Of a DNA stretch of 54,488 bases, positions 4,664 to 29,466 are shown piece after piece. This DNA is from a virus. The stretch lies in the IMG/VR virus record IMGVR_UViG_3300003324_000108, positions 1-54,488 of that record; one strand, 5' to 3'. Under the pieces are notes generated by a model, which saw only the letters and a program-made list of their open reading frames with translations, did not search any database and was not told the DNA's origin. Positions within the stretch are counted from its first letter, which is position 1; each line of letters begins with the position of its first letter. The position numbers and the translations under genes were made by a program.

Positions 4664-5281
4664 ATGACAACCGCAATCGAAAGTTACCTGTCGGCCCTGG
4701 GCTGCGTCATCGAGATCATCGAGTACGAGATCGCTATCGGACGTACCGCATCCCACACGCTGGGAGTCGTCATGCCGAACGACATGGAGAAGGGCTGGAA
4801 CTGGGAGATCTCGTTCGCCATCGGGACGGATACCTTCTACCAGACTCACACTGTCGCCTGCGTTGACGGCATGATTTCCCTTCCCGGACTGGTCCCGATC
4901 CTGGCGAAGAAACAATCCCCGCTGCGACTGAACTCGCTCATCTGCGCATCAATCCTCGGCGTGCAGGAGATCCCCGCACCCAGCCGTCGCGCTATCCGCC
5001 AGGCGGAGCAGGCGGCGGCGCTCATCGTCGCGCAGGAACTCAAAGCCGCGCTGGCTACCGGCAACATCGATGATCGGTTCTTCGCCCGCGAGGACGAGGC
5101 TGAGGTGTGGGACGAGATCGTCACCATGGCGGATATCCCCCACCCTTACGGACGGATGCGGACCAACTCCATCCCCTCGTACCTGCTGTCGGCATTCGAT
5201 GACGTCTACTACGAGGCGGCATCGGAGGCTATCGGTGCCAAGTGCGCCGCGGCTCGTCGCCGTCTGGGGGTGCAGGCGTGA
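4664..5281 (+). CDS. Hypothetical protein, 205 aa
   Basis: ATG at 4664 follows GAAAGGACC; an upstream in-frame ATG at 4511 lies in the hairpin region and is rejected. The N-terminal 100 residues are strand-rich, the C-terminal half helical (RRAIRQAEQAAALIVAQEL) with aromatic patches near DDVYYEAA. Three cysteines are scattered. No family recognised. It starts a three-gene operon ending at 5981. Confidence 0.8.
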   Translation: MTTAIESYLSALGCVIEIIEYEIAIGRTASHTLGVVMPNDMEKGWNWEISFAIGTDTFYQTHTVACVDGMISLPGLVPILAKKQSPLRLNSLICASILGVQEIPAPSRRAIRQAEQAAALIVAQELKAALATGNIDDRFFAREDEAEVWDEIVTMADIPHPYGRMRTNSIPSYLLSAFDDVYYEAASEAIGAKCAAARRRLGVQA

Positions 5282-6773: not shown

Positions 6774-7195
6774 TGCGCGTCACAGTCCGCGGTGAACAGG
6801 TCGAACTGCACGGCACCGCCAGTGCCAACGCGATCTTCGGCGACTTCCCCAAAGCCATGGAACCCTACGGGGTTGTCATCGCCAGCGACGGGTACACGCA
6901 GGAGGAGCTGACAGTCGCCTGTCGCCACGTCCTGGCCGTCATGTTCGGCGACCACGAGGCGGGCGAACAGCCCGGAGGTTTCATCACCTCCCTCATCGAG
7001 ACCATCCTCCGCGCCGATGCATCCAACGCACAGCGCCTCGCCCTCGGCTTCCCCGCGTACACCGCGGCGGTGGAGCTGTACAAGACCGTGCCCTACGGAG
7101 AAGACGCGCTCCGTGTTTGGGCCACACAGACCCCCGCCACCACTCCCGGTGACGGGTCATCCCCGAAAGAAGAGAAAGAAGACAGCAATGGCTGA
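6773..7195 (+). CDS. Hypothetical protein between clamp-like protein and AAA+ ATPase
   Basis: ATG at 6773 overlaps the previous stop (TGATG). The 140-residue protein begins with strands (MRVTVRGEQVELHG), is helical in the middle (FITSLIETILRADAS), and ends in a charged, Pro/Gly-rich tail (PGDGSSPKEEKEDSNG). No family recognised. It overlaps the AAA+ gene by eight bases, so the three products at 6132-8687 are made together and may act together. Confidence 0.8.
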   Translation: MRVTVRGEQVELHGTASANAIFGDFPKAMEPYGVVIASDGYTQEELTVACRHVLAVMFGDHEAGEQPGGFITSLIETILRADASNAQRLALGFPAYTAAVELYKTVPYGEDALRVWATQTPATTPGDGSSPKEEKEDSNG

Positions 7196-8687
7196 CACCA
7201 CCACCCAGAACCTGCCGGACATCACCACGCTCATGGCGCAGGTGATCGCGGAGACGCAGAAGGCGGACTTCGGCGCGAAGGTCATCACCGGAGACGAGGT
7301 CGAGTTCCACGACGGAACCAAGATCGGCCTGCCGAAGGGCATGACCTACACCAAGGCGAAGAAGGTGCTCACCCGTCTGGAGGAGGAGGCAGAGACGCCG
7401 ACCCACTTCCTCCAGGACTTCCGCTACCGTCCCGACGACGGCGCGTACGCTGCGCTCCAGGTCATCAAGAAGCGCTGGGGCATGGCGCTCGGCAAGGTGC
7501 AGCACACCTTCTTCGGCACCATCCCGGCGTCGAAGCGCACGATCAACATCGGCGTGGGCCAGACGATGCAGGTTCCGTGGGGCCTGCTGGAAGTCCCGAT
7601 CTTCGAGGGGCTGGAGCTGTACCTGGACCAGGTCCGCGACCGTGACTACGGCATCATCTTCCGCATCCACGGCAAGGGCCCGCGCAAGTACCAGGACGAG
7701 ATCCAGGGCTTCTTCGATGATGTGGAGGACTACCTGCGCACCAACTCCATCTACCGCGGGCGTGCCATCGTCGGCTCCGACGACCCGGAGTTCCTCGACA
7801 CGAGCAACTTCGACGCCTCGAAGATCATCTTCTCCGACGAGGTCACGGCGACGCTGAACGGGACGCTGTTCGCGCCGATCCGCTACACCGACGCCATGCG
7901 CCGGGAGGGTGTGCCGCTCAAGCGCGCCCTGCTGCTGGAGGGCCCGTACGGTACGGGCAAGACCTCTGTCGGCCAGATGACGGCCCAGGTCGCCACCGAC
8001 AATGGCTGGACCTTCATCAGCGCCAAGCCCGGTCGCGACAAGGTCGAGGATGTGCTGCGTACCGCTCGCCTCTACCAGCCCGCCGTCGTGTTCATCGAGG
8101 ACATCGACACCGAGGCGAACAACGGCGAGGCCGACGCGGTCACGAAGCTGCTGGAGGCGTTCGACGGCATCACCAGCAAGGGCGGGGAACTCCAGATCGT
8201 CATGACGACGAACCACCTGGACCGCATCCACAAGGGCATGCTCCGCCCGGGTCGCCTCGACGCTGTCGTGCACATCGGCTCGCTCGACCGCAACGGCGTG
8301 GAGCGTCTGTGCCGCGTCGTGATCGATGAGTCGCACCTCGACGCGGATGTGGACTTCGACGCCGTCTGGGAGGCCATGGAGGGCTTCCTCCCGGCGTTCG
8401 TGAAGGAGTCCATCACCCGTGCGGTGACGTTCGCCATCGACCGCCTGGAGGGTGGCCGTGGTTACAGCATCGCGACCGCCGACCTGGTCAACGCGGCGCA
8501 CTCCCTGCGTCCGCAGCTCGACGCGCTGAACGACGCCGGGGAGGGCACGCGCAAGCCGACCCTCGATGCCGCCCTGGCCAACACGGTCAAGACGGCGCTG
8601 AACCAGATGAGCACCTACGACCCCAACTACGAGGTGCACTCGCGCATCGAGGAGCTGGACAGCGAGGGCAACGTCATCGAGAAGTGA
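7188..8687 (+). CDS. AAA+ ATPase (FtsH/Cdc48-like class)
   Basis: The C-terminal half is a classic AAA+ module: Walker A GPYGTGKT near residue 252, Walker B VVFIEDID near 300, a sensor segment MTTNHLD near 342, and RPGRLD with the arginine finger of the classical AAA clade near 352. The N-terminal 230 residues are unrelated to a known domain that I recognise. ATG at 7188 follows AAAGAAGAGAAAGAA. Such ATPases remodel or unfold protein complexes; no protease or membrane segment is present. With the clamp-like gene upstream, a remodelling or loading role at the replication fork is possible but unproven. Confidence 0.85.
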   Translation: MADTTTQNLPDITTLMAQVIAETQKADFGAKVITGDEVEFHDGTKIGLPKGMTYTKAKKVLTRLEEEAETPTHFLQDFRYRPDDGAYAALQVIKKRWGMALGKVQHTFFGTIPASKRTINIGVGQTMQVPWGLLEVPIFEGLELYLDQVRDRDYGIIFRIHGKGPRKYQDEIQGFFDDVEDYLRTNSIYRGRAIVGSDDPEFLDTSNFDASKIIFSDEVTATLNGTLFAPIRYTDAMRREGVPLKRALLLEGPYGTGKTSVGQMTAQVATDNGWTFISAKPGRDKVEDVLRTARLYQPAVVFIEDIDTEANNGEADAVTKLLEAFDGITSKGGELQIVMTTNHLDRIHKGMLRPGRLDAVVHIGSLDRNGVERLCRVVIDESHLDADVDFDAVWEAMEGFLPAFVKESITRAVTFAIDRLEGGRGYSIATADLVNAAHSLRPQLDALNDAGEGTRKPTLDAALANTVKTALNQMSTYDPNYEVHSRIEELDSEGNVIEK

Positions 8688-12333: not shown

Positions 12334-12374
12334 CTAGCCGCCTGGTCTTCCAAGAGATGGAACCAGGCGGCTAG
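12334..12374 (+). terminator. 13-bp hairpin terminator
   Basis: CTAGCCGCCTGGT (12334-12346) pairs perfectly with ACCAGGCGGCTAG (12362-12374), 15-nt loop. It ends the DUF2510 operon. Confidence 0.75.
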
Positions 12375-12388
12375 GCTGATGTTTGTTC

Positions 12389-12428
12389 ACGACACCACGG
12401 TGACAGCATACCTGTCGCGTGGTGTCGT
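12389..12428 (+). promoter_or_regulatory. Strong leader hairpin before the replication initiator
   Basis: ACGACACCACG (12389-12399) pairs perfectly with CGTGGTGTCGT (12418-12428), and inside it GACAG (12402-12406) pairs with CTGTC (12412-12416) around CATAC: a 16-bp stem with a small internal loop. It begins 14 bases after the previous terminator and ends 22 bases before the start codon. It could be a DNA site for initiation, an operator or an RNA control element. Confidence 0.6.
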
Positions 12429-12450: not shown

Positions 12451-13218
12451 ATGAGCGTCAAGGTCATCACCTGGGCTTTCGATCAGGACCTTCCCCCCGT
12501 GAAGAAGTTCATCCTGGTAGCCCTCGCAGACTGGGCCGATGGGGATGGTGTCGCCTTCCCCGGCCAGCTGTCTCTGGCATCTAAGACTGGCATCTCGGAG
12601 CGAACCCTGCGCACCCACCTCAAGGAGCTGGAGGAAGCAGGCTTCCTCACACGAGCGAAGCGGTACACGGAGGGTGGCAAGCGGACCTCTGACGAGTACC
12701 GGCTATCGCTACTACCGGCAAATATTGCCGGTAGTTCTACCGGCAATCTGCGTCGTGACTACCGGCAAACTGTTGCCGGTACAGAAGCTATAAGGAAGGA
12801 ACCGTCAGAAGAACCGTCAGTAGTTAACGCGCGCGTGAGGACGAAGGACTTCGACGCTCTCCTGGATCGGTACTTCGAGGGGTTCTGGAAGAACTACCCC
12901 CGCAAGGTTGGCAAGGTCGCTGCGAAGGCTGCGTACATGGCGGCGATCAAGCGCAAGGTCAGCCCGTTCGTCATCGCGGAGGGGCTGGACAGACAGTTGC
13001 CTGACCTGTCCTCGCGGGAGGAGCGGTACATCCCGCACCCGGCTACGTGGCTGAACGGCGAACGCTACAACGACGATGTTGCGACCGGTCAGTCCGTCGT
13101 GAACACCGCGAACCGTACGAACCCCCACAGCGTCCGGGACAAGATGCCGATGGACAGGGCCAGGGAGATCATGAACATTCAACCCCTCACTGAAAGGCGA
13201 CACGATGAACTTCGATGA
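12451..13218 (+). CDS. Replication initiator (lambda O / DnaD-like, HTH_36 type)
   Basis: Residues 1-75 form the winged-helix pattern of phage initiators: SVKVITWAFDQDL, then FPGQLSLASKTGISERTLRTHLKELEEAGFL. Residues 90-130 are a low-complexity linker, whose DNA is full of iterons. Residues 135-205 carry the C-terminal module FWKNYPRKVGK and HPATWLNGERY, typical of phage replisome organisers that contact the helicase or loader. ATG 12451 follows GAAGGAAAAC; an in-frame ATG at 12379 lacks a ribosome site. The neighbour is a probable helicase loader. Confidence 0.8.
   Translation: MSVKVITWAFDQDLPPVKKFILVALADWADGDGVAFPGQLSLASKTGISERTLRTHLKELEEAGFLTRAKRYTEGGKRTSDEYRLSLLPANIAGSSTGNLRRDYRQTVAGTEAIRKEPSEEPSVVNARVRTKDFDALLDRYFEGFWKNYPRKVGKVAAKAAYMAAIKRKVSPFVIAEGLDRQLPDLSSREERYIPHPATWLNGERYNDDVATGQSVVNTANRTNPHSVRDKMPMDRAREIMNIQPLTERRHDELR
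12697..12820 (+). other. Candidate replication origin: iteron cluster inside the initiator gene
   Basis: Five exact copies of TACCGGCAA occur in 69 bp: forward at 12713-12721, 12738-12746 and 12760-12768, reverse at 12725-12733 and 12773-12781; a sixth (TACCGGCTA) is at 12697-12705. The first pair forms an 11-bp-arm palindrome. Just downstream GAACCGTCAG is directly repeated (12799-12808, 12811-12820). The location in the linker-coding part of the initiator gene is exactly that of lambda ori within O. Confidence 0.75.
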
Positions 13219-13630
13219 GACGAAGAAGCTTCTGATGCGGGTCAACGTCCATGACAACCGCAAGGTGGATGGCCTGGTTGTCGAACACTGGGCGGATATC
13301 CTTCGCGACTACACCGAGAAGGAGTGCATGGCTGCGTTGCGGTGGTTCATCATGACGAACACCGAGGACTACCTCAAGCCTGCTCACCTCGTGCAGTACA
13401 TGAACCAGCGTCGCCGTGAGCATGCCTGGGCGAATCCGGCGATGGAGGCGGGGAAGTATTTCCTCGACGGTTGGGTGGACCAGGACGAGGCGATCCAGCG
13501 TGCGTCCGAGGAGAACCGCAGGCTGCGGGGTGGCAAGCCCACCGCCGTCGATGTCGCCGAGTCGTACACCAAGGAAGAACTCGAAGAGTTCAAGGGCATG
13601 ATGATCCCCCCGCCCGAGGGGTTGGGCTGA
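13205..13630 (+). CDS. Probable helicase loader
   Basis: The 141-residue protein has the helical pattern VEHWADILRDYTEKEC followed by AALRWFI and KPAHLVQYMNQRRRE, which matches small phage helicase loaders (G39P-like) where a W-x-x-x-L helix precedes a P-x-x-I/L turn. ATG at 13205 follows GAAAGGCGAC and overlaps the initiator gene by 14 bases. Initiator plus loader would bring a hexameric helicase, host or phage, to the origin. The C-terminal tail (YTKEELEEFKGMM) is acidic. Confidence 0.55.
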   Translation: MNFDETKKLLMRVNVHDNRKVDGLVVEHWADILRDYTEKECMAALRWFIMTNTEDYLKPAHLVQYMNQRRREHAWANPAMEAGKYFLDGWVDQDEAIQRASEENRRLRGGKPTAVDVAESYTKEELEEFKGMMIPPPEGLG

Positions 13631-17004: not shown

Positions 17005-17098
17005 TCCGCGTAGTCCCTGGTTTTGGCCGGTGGTAACGCTCGCCGCCCTGATCGTTCTCGTCGTCGGCGGTACGATCATCGCCCTCATCCAGTCATGA
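16991..17098 (+). CDS. Single-span membrane miniprotein, 35 aa
   Basis: ATG at 16991 overlaps the preceding gene; its TGA overlaps the primase ATG (ATGA), so translation is probably coupled. Residues 11-33 are hydrophobic (WFWPVVTLAALIVLVVGG). No function known. Confidence 0.6.
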   Translation: MATGSPRSPWFWPVVTLAALIVLVVGGTIIALIQS

Positions 17099-18714
17099 CG
17101 GGACAGGCAACTGTCCGCCTCCTGGATGCACTCCAGGCGCACGGCGCGACCATCAAGCAGGCCCCCGGGGGATGGCTGGCAACATGCCCCGTCCCCTCCC
17201 ATGAGGATCGCAACCCCAGTTTCTCCGTGCAGGAGGGGAACGGCATGGTCCTGTACCGGTGTCGTTCCGGGTGTGACCAGGCTGTGGTCACTGACGCGAT
17301 CTACAACGTCCTCGGGCTGACGCGTGACGACCTGTACGACAACCGGCGTGGTGTCGAGTATGTCTACCGTGACAAGCCTGGCGGGCGTGACGTGCGCAAG
17401 GTGCGGCGGTTCAATGACCGTACCAGCGGCACCAAGACATTCGCGCAGGTGGGGCCACAGGCCAGGTCCACACGGGGTGCAGCACTGTACCGCCCCAACG
17501 ACTTCGACCTGGAGAAGGTTCTCGACAAGGACGTGTGGATCGCGGAGGGGGAGAAGGACGCTGACATCCTCTACCGCTACGGGATCCCCGCCGTGTCCGG
17601 TGCTGCTGGTGCTGGCAACTGGGACAAGCATGATTACTCAACAGTGGCAAGGGCGGCACGGGTCACCATCGTCGTGGACGACGACAAGGCCGGGTACGAG
17701 CGGGGCTATGGGCTGTACCACCACCTGACCAGCGTGTACGACGCCAACGTGCGGCTCGTGGTTCCCATGGCAGGGAATGACGTGACAGACCACTTGCTCC
17801 AGGGTCTCACCGTGAACGACTTCAAGGAGATCCCGGGCGATCCGGATTTCGAGGAGCAGGTAGCGGAGCAGCGGCGGGCATGGAAGATCACACGCGAGGC
17901 GAAACGGCGGGACGGTCAGGCGTTCGCTGCTGCGGCTATCGAGAACTTCCACCCGAAGACGCTGGGGGAGATCCAGGACGCCACAGAGGAAGCCCGGGAC
18001 TGGATCATCCCTGACCTTCTGGAGCGGCACGAGCGGTTCGTCCTGACGGGCGCTGAGGGCGGTGGTAAATCGTGGTGGATGCGGCAGGTGATGATTACCG
18101 CGGCAGCTGGGCTGAACCCGTTCTATCCGCACCTGGAGTACACGCCCGTGAAGGTGCTCGCCATCGATGCGGAGAACACCGAACTGCAGTGGCAGCGTTC
18201 CACGAAGTACCTGACGAACCTGGTGCAGGCAAAGGGTGGCAGGGATCCGCGTGACCATGTCATCGTGCAGGCGGGGTATCGCCTCGACTTTACCCAGCAG
18301 GCGCACATCGATCACGTGCACCAGCTGATGGATCTGCACAAGCCGGACATCGTGTTCCTCGGCCCGCTGTACAAGCTGGTCCCGAAGGAGATCACGAACG
18401 ACGACGATGCGGCACCGCTGCTCGCAGCTCTCGATGGGATCCGGGAGCGCGGGGTGGCACTCCTGATGGAAGCCCACGCTGGCAAGTCGAAGGAGCAGGG
18501 TGGGGAACGGAACCTGGCACCTCGCGGTTCGTCGGCGTTGTTGGGCTGGCCGGAATTCGGGTACGGGCTGCGACCATTGACGAATGACCCGGGGATGGCG
18601 ACGATGGTGGGATGGCGTGGGGATCGCGAGCAGCGCCCCTGGCCGAAGATGATTAGGCGCGGGGAGGCTGGGGAGTACCCCTGGGTTCCCACGAATGTTC
18701 AGGGGATGCAATGA
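17095..18714 (+). CDS. Primase-helicase (Toprim plus RecA-like domain)
   Basis: Three modules in 539 residues. The N-terminal zinc domain has C31-PVPSH-x-DRNPSF and C-RSGC near residue 56-60, as in DnaG/CHC2. The Toprim core has EGEKDADILY near 149 and DDDKAG near 195. The C-terminal RepA-like AAA_25 ATPase has Walker A GAEGGGKS near 320 and Walker B PDIVFLGPLYKL near 420. It would make primers and unwind DNA at the fork, like the T7 or P4 type fusions. It overlaps the miniprotein upstream by four bases. Confidence 0.88.
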   Translation: MTGQATVRLLDALQAHGATIKQAPGGWLATCPVPSHEDRNPSFSVQEGNGMVLYRCRSGCDQAVVTDAIYNVLGLTRDDLYDNRRGVEYVYRDKPGGRDVRKVRRFNDRTSGTKTFAQVGPQARSTRGAALYRPNDFDLEKVLDKDVWIAEGEKDADILYRYGIPAVSGAAGAGNWDKHDYSTVARAARVTIVVDDDKAGYERGYGLYHHLTSVYDANVRLVVPMAGNDVTDHLLQGLTVNDFKEIPGDPDFEEQVAEQRRAWKITREAKRRDGQAFAAAAIENFHPKTLGEIQDATEEARDWIIPDLLERHERFVLTGAEGGGKSWWMRQVMITAAAGLNPFYPHLEYTPVKVLAIDAENTELQWQRSTKYLTNLVQAKGGRDPRDHVIVQAGYRLDFTQQAHIDHVHQLMDLHKPDIVFLGPLYKLVPKEITNDDDAAPLLAALDGIRERGVALLMEAHAGKSKEQGGERNLAPRGSSALLGWPEFGYGLRPLTNDPGMATMVGWRGDREQRPWPKMIRRGEAGEYPWVPTNVQGMQ

Positions 18715-27756: not shown

Positions 27757-29466
27757 TCAGAGGGTGTAGGCGTAGATGTACCCGAACGCCACGAAAGCGC
27801 GGGAGGCGTCGGGGGTGATGTGCGTGGCGGTCCACACCTTGCCAGCCGACATGTTCACGTACTGCCAAGACGTGTTCACGTCGTAGGAGAGGTACACGCC
27901 ACTCTGGTAGGTATCGGCGATGATCGCCTGGTACCCATTGGACGCGACGGAGATGTGGTCCCAACGTGCTGACGGGGGCGGGGCATATCCGCCCGTGACA
28001 CCCCACGAATCGCCCGTGTCACCCGAGACCCACGTGCCGCCGAAGGAATCGGAACCAACCATGTCGGACCCATCTGTGGACATACCCACATAGAGCCAGC
28101 CGTTGTTGCGCGGCTCGTCGTAGGAGCCCCGAGCCCAGGCGCGGAAGACGCCCCACGTGGTACCACCATCCTTGCTGATCCGGAACCCGTTGACGCCGTT
28201 CATGTAGCCGTTGGCGTAGATGACGCTGCCGTTGCCGGAAATGCTCACAGGCGTGTTCCAGATGTCCGTGTCCGATACGTCAATCGGGGAGGACCAGGTA
28301 GTACCCAGATTCGTGGACGTGTACACCTTGCCGCCCCGGCCAAGGACGATCTTGGCGAGGGTGGAATCACCTGCCAGATTTATCGTCTGCGTGGAGGTTG
28401 ACGGGATGGTGGGCGTGGTGAAAGACGTTCCGCCATTGCTGGACACCAGGAGGATCTTCGTGTCCGACGTGATGGCTGCGATCTTGCTGCCGTCAGCGGA
28501 GGTGATGACATCCGCCCACTTGCGCGATCCCGCCGCCGTCAGGGCCGTCCAAGTAGCTCCCGAGTCCGTAGACCGGTACAGGTTCCCCGCCGTGTTGATG
28601 CCCGCAGCGGCCACCAGAATGGCCCCATTCGTGGAGGAGGAAATGGCGGCCCACTCGCGGTTGCCCGCGCTCGTGAGGGCAGTCCAGGGGATCGTAGTCG
28701 GCTCCGTGTAAGCGGTCGCCGAGATGGTCCCGCTGGTCGAAACCTTGATGCGCCACTTGCCTCCGGAGCTGTCCTCCAGAATGATCCCCGTCTCGGGTCC
28801 AGTCGGGTAGTCTCCGAAAGGATCCACGCCGATGGGGCGGCGAATGTGAAGATCACGCGCCCCGATCTGAGCCTCCTCGTGGCGGATGATCGCCGGGGCA
28901 TTGCCGTTGTACCCGTAGCCGTTGATGGAGGTGTTGTCCGCACCCCAAGGCTTCGGGCCAGATCCGATCTGGACGGATCGCTGGCCAAGAGCGCTGGCGT
29001 CCTGTCCTATGGCAACAGACTTTGTGCCATACGCCTTGGACGCGGGGCCGATGGCGACCGAGTCAGTGCCGGACGCTTCCGCTCCAGTCCACGAGCCGAT
29101 GGCGATGGAGTTCTCGCCGTCCGCGGCGGCGCGCCAGCCGATGGCGACGCTGTAAGGGCCTCTTGCACTGGACCATCCCGCTGCCAGTGTCCCGTCCATC
29201 CCCGTGAACGCGTCAGCCGTCATGGTGTACGTGTGGTCCAGGACGGGGTCGGCAGGGATGGGGCCACCCACGGACCCGATGGGCACGGTCATGCCATTCT
29301 GGAGCGTTGCCTGCATGACGCCGCTGCTGATCGTGAGGCCGGTGATCGCCAGGCCGCCCGACGTCTCCAGACCATTGACGAACGAGGCGATGGCATCTGC
29401 CCACGCCTTGAAGGGGATGAAGTAAGGGTTCGTCCCCCGTGCCGGGATCTGGGTGTTGAACGGCAT
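27757..29466 (-). CDS. Tail fibre: YadA-like head plus Asp-box propeller
   Basis: 569 residues. Residues 104-170 have repeated SVAIG/SIAIG motifs (SVAIGWRAA, NSIAIGSWTG, DSVAIGPAS, KSVAIGQDA), the left-handed roll of YadA/Hep_Hag-type trimeric adhesins. Residues 260-535 have six Asp-box-like motifs (S.D.G.TW: STDSGATW, STNLGTTW, SKDGGTTW, SGDTGDSW, with weaker ones near 343 and 527), which form beta-propellers in sialidase-type proteins. This is probably a receptor-binding fibre. ATG at 29466 follows GAGGTAGG. Confidence 0.8.
   Translation of the reverse strand: MPFNTQIPARGTNPYFIPFKAWADAIASFVNGLETSGGLAITGLTISSGVMQATLQNGMTVPIGSVGGPIPADPVLDHTYTMTADAFTGMDGTLAAGWSSARGPYSVAIGWRAAADGENSIAIGSWTGAEASGTDSVAIGPASKAYGTKSVAIGQDASALGQRSVQIGSGPKPWGADNTSINGYGYNGNAPAIIRHEEAQIGARDLHIRRPIGVDPFGDYPTGPETGIILEDSSGGKWRIKVSTSGTISATAYTEPTTIPWTALTSAGNREWAAISSSTNGAILVAAAGINTAGNLYRSTDSGATWTALTAAGSRKWADVITSADGSKIAAITSDTKILLVSSNGGTSFTTPTIPSTSTQTINLAGDSTLAKIVLGRGGKVYTSTNLGTTWSSPIDVSDTDIWNTPVSISGNGSVIYANGYMNGVNGFRISKDGGTTWGVFRAWARGSYDEPRNNGWLYVGMSTDGSDMVGSDSFGGTWVSGDTGDSWGVTGGYAPPPSARWDHISVASNGYQAIIADTYQSGVYLSYDVNTSWQYVNMSAGKVWTATHITPDASRAFVAFGYIYAYTL

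Follow-up and report, generated by a model that had tools for sequence, protein, structure and literature searches.

The replication initiator gene of this phage probably contains a two-part origin of replication in the stretch that codes for its interdomain linker: a cluster of iterons private to the phage, followed by a short oriented repeat, GAACCNTC, that is shared with dissimilar phages and likely serves in unwinding or strand capture. The window, by which we mean the whole stretch of 54,488 bp that was analysed, would thus add one more case to a familiar arrangement, the lambda-like origin inside an initiator gene. Judged from the sequence, the GAACCGTC repeat is the conserved part of this putative origin and the iterons are its variable part, a point that an earlier note on this DNA had missed.

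The gene and the domains of its product are placed as follows.

12451..13218, (+): replication initiator gene P0002, 255 aa, with HTH_36 and phrog_270 matches
12451..12708, (+): N-terminal winged helix, DnaD-N-like, residues 1-86 (AF2 pLDDT mostly >90)
12733..12831, (+): disordered linker, residues 95-127 (pLDDT <50 at 95-115 and 117-127)
12844..13062, (+): helical C-terminal module, residues 132-204 (FxxFWxxYPRK ... PATWLN)

The ATG at 12451 is favoured as the start over that at 12379, with GAAGGA upstream of it and relatives aligning from it. By profile, P0002 belongs to the phrog_270 / HTH_36 phage initiators: it matches HTH_36 (E=1.4e-10, above cutoff) and the phrog_270 'replication initiation protein' profile (E=3.2e-44), the latter over residues 7-226, which take in both the winged helix and the C-terminal module. 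Together with the fold that AlphaFold2 predicted from 33 aligned sequences, that of P0002 itself and those of 32 relatives, which includes a helical C-domain, these matches bear out the earlier description of an initiator with an N-terminal winged helix and a C-terminal module. In a profile search the solved sequences closest to the winged helix were the DnaD N-domains 2v79, 2vn2 and 8ojj, and Foldseek returned generic winged helices and DnaD, and nothing else. A search with the initiator protein alone gave a single weak viral relative, no DNA-level relatives of the window were found in the phage collection, and scans for RNA families and tRNAs gave no matches.

The first part of the proposed origin is a cluster that spans 85 bp in total (12697-12781), in which TACCGGCAA occurs five times exactly and once as a near copy. 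The exact copies start at 12713(+), 12725(-), 12738(+), 12760(+) and 12773(-), and they fall into the following units.

12697..12705, (+): near-copy iteron half-site, TACCGGCTA
12711..12735: dyad iteron 1, ACTACCGGCAA-ATA-TTGCCGGTAGT, 11-bp arms (12711-12721 and 12725-12735), 3-bp spacer
12738..12746, (+): iteron half-site, TACCGGCAA
12760..12781: dyad iteron 2, TACCGGCAA-ACTG-TTGCCGGTA, 9-bp arms (12760-12768 and 12773-12781), 4-bp spacer

The earlier note had counted three forward and two reverse exact repeats with a near copy in 85 bp, had seen two tight inverted pairs, one of them with 11-bp arms, and had remarked on the unequal forward spacing of 25 and 22 bp. All of this holds, with arms of 11 and 9 bp and forward spacings, near copy included, of 16, 25 and 22 bp. 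Its placement of the repeats in the linker-coding part is also right for most of them: the bulk of the cluster, along with the two GAACCGTC copies, falls within the linker (nucleotides 12733-12831), and its first iterons reach back into the last stretch that codes for the winged helix.

Outside the cluster, TACCGGCAA occurs exactly once more in the 54,488 bp, at 5056-5064, an isolated copy that is probably there by chance. No other 7-10-mer was found to cluster comparably within the window. When the initiator gene was codon-shuffled with its protein and codon usage preserved (n=2000), 0/2000 shuffles had a 9-mer with four or more copies in a cluster, against the five observed, and the six iteron copies use all three codon phases (0, 1, 1, 2, 0, 1); the repetition was therefore kept, or arose, at the level of DNA. 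In the pattern-selected set described below, many phages have a dyad as their last iteron, for example GGGTGCA..TGCACCC, and the best reading of the inverted pairs is accordingly as two complete dyad iterons, lambda-like, accompanied by two half-sites. Binding of initiator dimers to the inverted pairs is plausible. It is very unlikely that the TACCGGCAA cluster is no origin and acts instead as an operator array, or as RNA hairpins, regulating the initiator gene. Iteron-type initiators do often autoregulate, and as RNA the inverted pairs are predicted to form stable folds (z=-4.6), but the array lies ~250 bp into the coding region with no promoter-like site nearby, and relatives carry in the same place mostly direct repeats at 17-23 bp, which would not be expected of RNA hairpins.

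The iterons are followed at 12799-12822 by the sequence GAACCGTCAGAA GAACCGTCAGTA, which holds the second part.

12788..12798, (+): CTATAAGGAAG spacer preceding the element
12799..12806, (+): GAACCNTC element, copy 1
12811..12818, (+): GAACCNTC element, copy 2, at a spacing of 12

A directly repeated GAACCGTCAG after the iterons had been mentioned in passing before; we find it at 12799 and 12811, thus at 12799-12818 with a spacing of 12 bp, and the interval given at the time, which ended at 12820, included nearly all, if not quite the whole, of this second repeat element. As a working definition, the GAACCNTC element consists of at least two oriented copies, spaced by 10-13 bp, that follow iterons inside an initiator ORF, and the window carries such an element. 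Its surroundings (12760-12849) have an AT fraction of 0.47-0.50 and a purine fraction of 0.62-0.68, compared with an AT fraction of 0.30-0.48 elsewhere in the gene, and are thus not strongly AT-rich. The window has two copies only and they are in frame (EPSEEPS) at 12 bp, so that in this phage taken alone the repeat could be one of protein.

We therefore turned to relatives. The protein-selected set comprised 49 non-redundant sequences, namely 48 relatives picked by protein only and the window. A de novo motif search with a Markov background was used, k-mer counts and plain EM being confounded by AT-rich background and redundancy, and it recovered aGAACC.TCca with an objective of 93, compared with at most 42 in five codon-shuffled sets; the shuffled sets retain a weak trace of the motif, imprinted in the protein. 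AACC.TC reaches a density of 4.59/kb in the linkers of the 49 sequences against 0.22/kb elsewhere in the same genes (~20x), and GGTT, the reverse complement of AACC, is without enrichment in the linkers of this set. Tandem AACC is present in 25/49 sequences, where codon shuffles gave 7.4 expected and a maximum of 13 among 300. The GAACC tandem is not universal, even within the initiator family: about half of the protein-selected relatives, including Sansa, Pam4 and phiPsal1, have no clear one. The linkers of four metagenomic viral relatives of this kind (L135, L146, L137 and L178) carry other tandem T-poor words in the same place, such as AATACTAAAGATAATACTAAAGAT, which are perhaps a second class of element.

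These results make it scarcely credible that the repeats belong to the protein, as a low-complexity linker (EPSxNRxxTV) repeating by chance. The linker is indeed disordered in the predicted fold and the weak trace in the shuffled sets is what such an origin would leave, but the enrichment exceeds that of the codon shuffles, and across carriers the copies occupy all three reading frames at spacings of 10, 11 and 12 bp (16, 20 and 24 of the non-seed copies, respectively), so that one DNA word yields different peptides.

Searches of IMG/VR with the word itself point the same way. Initiator ORFs held 96/120 of the matches listed for GAACCGTC pairs at 11 bp (at least 120 loci), 79/134 for pairs at 12 bp, the spacing in the window, 77/117 for GAACCATC pairs at 11 bp and 13/53 for pairs at 15 bp. 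Two decoys gave none: the reversed word CTGCCAAG was in an initiator at 0/37 loci, and the one-base variant GAAGCGTC had just 12 loci, with 0/12 in an initiator. Over four GAACC searches the opposite-strand orientation was seen in 1/289 ORF matches among those listed. Counts from such pattern-selected sets are biased towards the query word, and our argument therefore rests on the protein-selected set and the decoys.

The iterons differ from phage to phage. Among ten dissimilar named-phage relatives some linker repeat was found in 10/10, mostly as iteron-like arrays: the Arthrobacter phages and JBD68 have 22-bp direct repeats, Sansa repeats CAACCGGCA, EBPR podovirus 2 repeats AAACCCGG, BK5-T has an annotated repeat region at the linker, and Vibrio D65 has a two-copy word only. 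The Arthrobacter phages carry three or four GAACCGTCCTT-type copies at the same place, although their iterons are different. At least three exact iterons are present in 62/67 non-redundant carriers of the element, with spacing peaks at 17-18 and 21-23 bp, and the iteron words of these 62 phages are 47 different ones. The distance from the centre of the last iteron to the first AACC has its mode at 17-19 bp (~two helix turns). TATAAGG-type spacers like that of the window recur in some relatives (L088, L108, L116 and a Sulfitobacter plasmid), and TATA is found in the spacer of 6/67 against a 1% background, a weak excess. Local GC at the element is 0.49-0.56 versus ~0.61, the GC minimum of the high-GC relatives; a specific sequence is nevertheless kept there, and base composition alone is therefore insufficient to account for it.

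Carrier phages and prophages span Actinomycetota, Alpha-, Beta- and Gammaproteobacteria, Deltaproteobacteria and Campylobacter. The few matches in bacterial genomes come from hosts including Paraburkholderia, Campylobacter, Paracoccus, Saccharopolyspora, Salinispora, Actinopolyspora, Streptomyces and Piscinibacter. The Sulfitobacter plasmid has iterons and then GAACCTGTAAAGAACCTAAAAGAACCC, and may be a phage-plasmid. What has been observed directly is that the repeats exist and are conserved, where they lie, and how they are oriented and spaced.

Two further explanations deal with what reads the element. The GAACCNTC repeats might be low-affinity variants of the iterons, bound by the same winged helix, and in the window TACCGGCAA and GAACCGTCAG do have ACCG-CA in common; over 46 iteron words, however, similarity to the element was 4.17 versus 4.07 for shuffled words (p=0.19; p=0.08 for the window iteron), and we regard this explanation as improbable. 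The main rival, unlikely in our judgement but the least so of those considered, is that the repeats are bound as duplex, and not as a melted strand, by a conserved host or phage protein, be it an architectural or bending protein, DnaA or the helicase loader. A spacing of 10-12 bp would set the copies on one face of the DNA, and the word stays constant while iterons, winged helices (median identity 31% among carriers) and C-termini (~24 clusters) vary. On the other hand, carrier hosts are so diverse that such a partner would have to be nearly universal, GAACCNTC is unlike the DnaA box, and strand capture would account just as well for the dip in GC and for the strictness with which the copies keep to one strand. 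As a candidate reader of the motif, the C-domain was considered and set aside in view of its many different clusters among carriers.

Our preferred reading remains that of a two-part origin. Unwinding or strand capture is the most likely role of the element because it stands in place of the AT-rich tract of lambda and because repeated single-strand words have precedents in other origins. The binding, melting, strand capture and helicase loading that we infer would proceed as follows. The winged helix would bind the private TACCGGCAA dyads and half-sites as double-stranded DNA, probably with the initiator as dimers at the inverted pairs. The GAACCNTC repeats, which other phages share, keep to one strand at intervals of roughly a helix turn and begin a fixed distance downstream; distortion of the DNA by the initiator array would open the duplex at these repeats. 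One of their strands would then be held by the initiator or by the helicase loader, leading to helicase loading. More broadly, GAACCNTC at one-turn spacing may well be a widely shared phage-origin element and a counterpart of the DnaA-trio: a sequence-specific site of unwinding or strand capture that initiators have kept in common while their iterons, winged helices and C-terminal modules diverged, and that some conserved activity would recognise in hosts of very different kinds.

Neighbouring genes offer candidate partners for these steps.

13205..13630, (+): P0003, overlapping the 3' end of the initiator gene, in the position of lambda P; candidate helicase loader
17023..18714, (+): primase-helicase (Toprim + AAA_25); possible helicase partner

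P0003 matches the 'replisome organizer' of phiPsal1, which lies beside RepO there (E=1e-7), and more weakly Inhibitor_G39P, the SPP1-type loader family (E=0.16, below cutoff). Several other features of the window were recorded. Just 5' of the initiator gene is a perfect hairpin with 13-bp arms (12334-12374; RNA fold -31.2 kcal/mol, z -6.4) and no T-tract, a possible terminator or regulatory hairpin. Between it and the initiator start is an inverted repeat, ACGACACCACG/CGTGGTGTCGT, with 11-bp arms (12389-12428), a candidate operator. Upstream in the early region, 7017-8687 codes for an AAA+ ATPase of 556 aa (phrog_10440, function unknown). A gene at 27757-29466 (-) combines YadA head repeats with a sortilin/BNR-like part and possibly codes for a receptor-binding protein. 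From a tail protein we would guess at a Microbacterium-type host.

In the usual view, an iteron origin is specific to its replicon and the region to be melted is merely AT-rich. That one precise word recurs in phages whose iterons differ and whose initiators have diverged suggests common sequence rules for strand opening or helicase delivery, and with them a common, apparently undescribed step in the opening of phage DNA. No description of the GAACCNTC element was found in open-access full text on phage origin repeats. Pairs of GAACCNTC at 11 bp also provide a simple finder of phage and prophage origins: in viral contigs they fall mostly in initiator genes, among the matches listed, unlike in whole bacterial genomes, where chance matches dominate (10-11/119 in initiators).

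One close comparison is with lambda. The earlier label of a lambda-like origin stands as regards placement, the iterons lying in the initiator linker as in a lambda-type origin and dissimilar relatives having iterons of their own there, but direct kinship with lambda O is not supported: lambda O and P0002 have no detectable pairwise similarity (BLASTP E=20), which by sequence leaves P0002 outside the lambda O family, and 'O-like' PHROGs match only its N-terminal part. With lambda ori and O, and also P22 gp18, the window shares the siting of its putative origin inside the initiator gene, where it separates the part for DNA binding from the C-terminal one, as well as dyad iterons ~20 bp apart, a second element immediately downstream of them, on one side, that is presumably easier to melt, and an adjoining gene that is a candidate loader. 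The minimal unwinding unit of lambda is two iterons and the adjacent AT-rich tract, whose single strand is bound by O (PMC7466680). Lambda and P22 differ in that they lack a GAACC tandem and have an A-rich tract (ACAAAAGAC...), whereas the second element here is a definite word maintained in DNA of 63% GC. In lambdoid origins (L422-L426) the corresponding place is taken by ACAAAAGAC-type repeats (ACAAAAGACAATATACAAAAGACAATA in P22).

The phrog_270 initiators of named phages (Arthrobacter Eesa, Cupello and Galaxy, Pseudomonas JBD68 and EBPR podovirus 2) share the family, the position of the iterons and GAACCGTC-type repeats at 10-13 bp. They differ in their own iteron sequences, as direct repeats mostly of 22 bp (14 and 22 in EBPR podovirus 2), where the window has two dyads and half-sites.

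Beyond phages, repeated single-strand words beside duplex initiator sites are known from the DnaA-trio, V. cholerae ori2 and plasmid Rep systems (PMC10797057), and the DnaD recognition element is a single-strand word of bacterial oriC near such sites (PMC10201434). The DnaA-trio and the DnaD element have in common with the window short specific repeats in an unwinding region, a proposed one in the window, next to the duplex sites of the initiator, and for DnaD the likeness extends to its N-domain, the closest solved relative of the P0002 winged helix. These elements are 3-nt trios or TnnT, chromosomal and read as single strand, whereas that of the window is an 8-mer at one-turn spacing with a putative single-strand role. 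Iterons accompanied by a repeated unwinding element that Rep binds as a single strand are also found in RK2 (13-mers) and V. cholerae ori2 (RATCA) (PMC10797057). The unwinding repeats of iteron plasmids, however, are specific to each replicon, whereas GAACCNTC is common to dissimilar ones.
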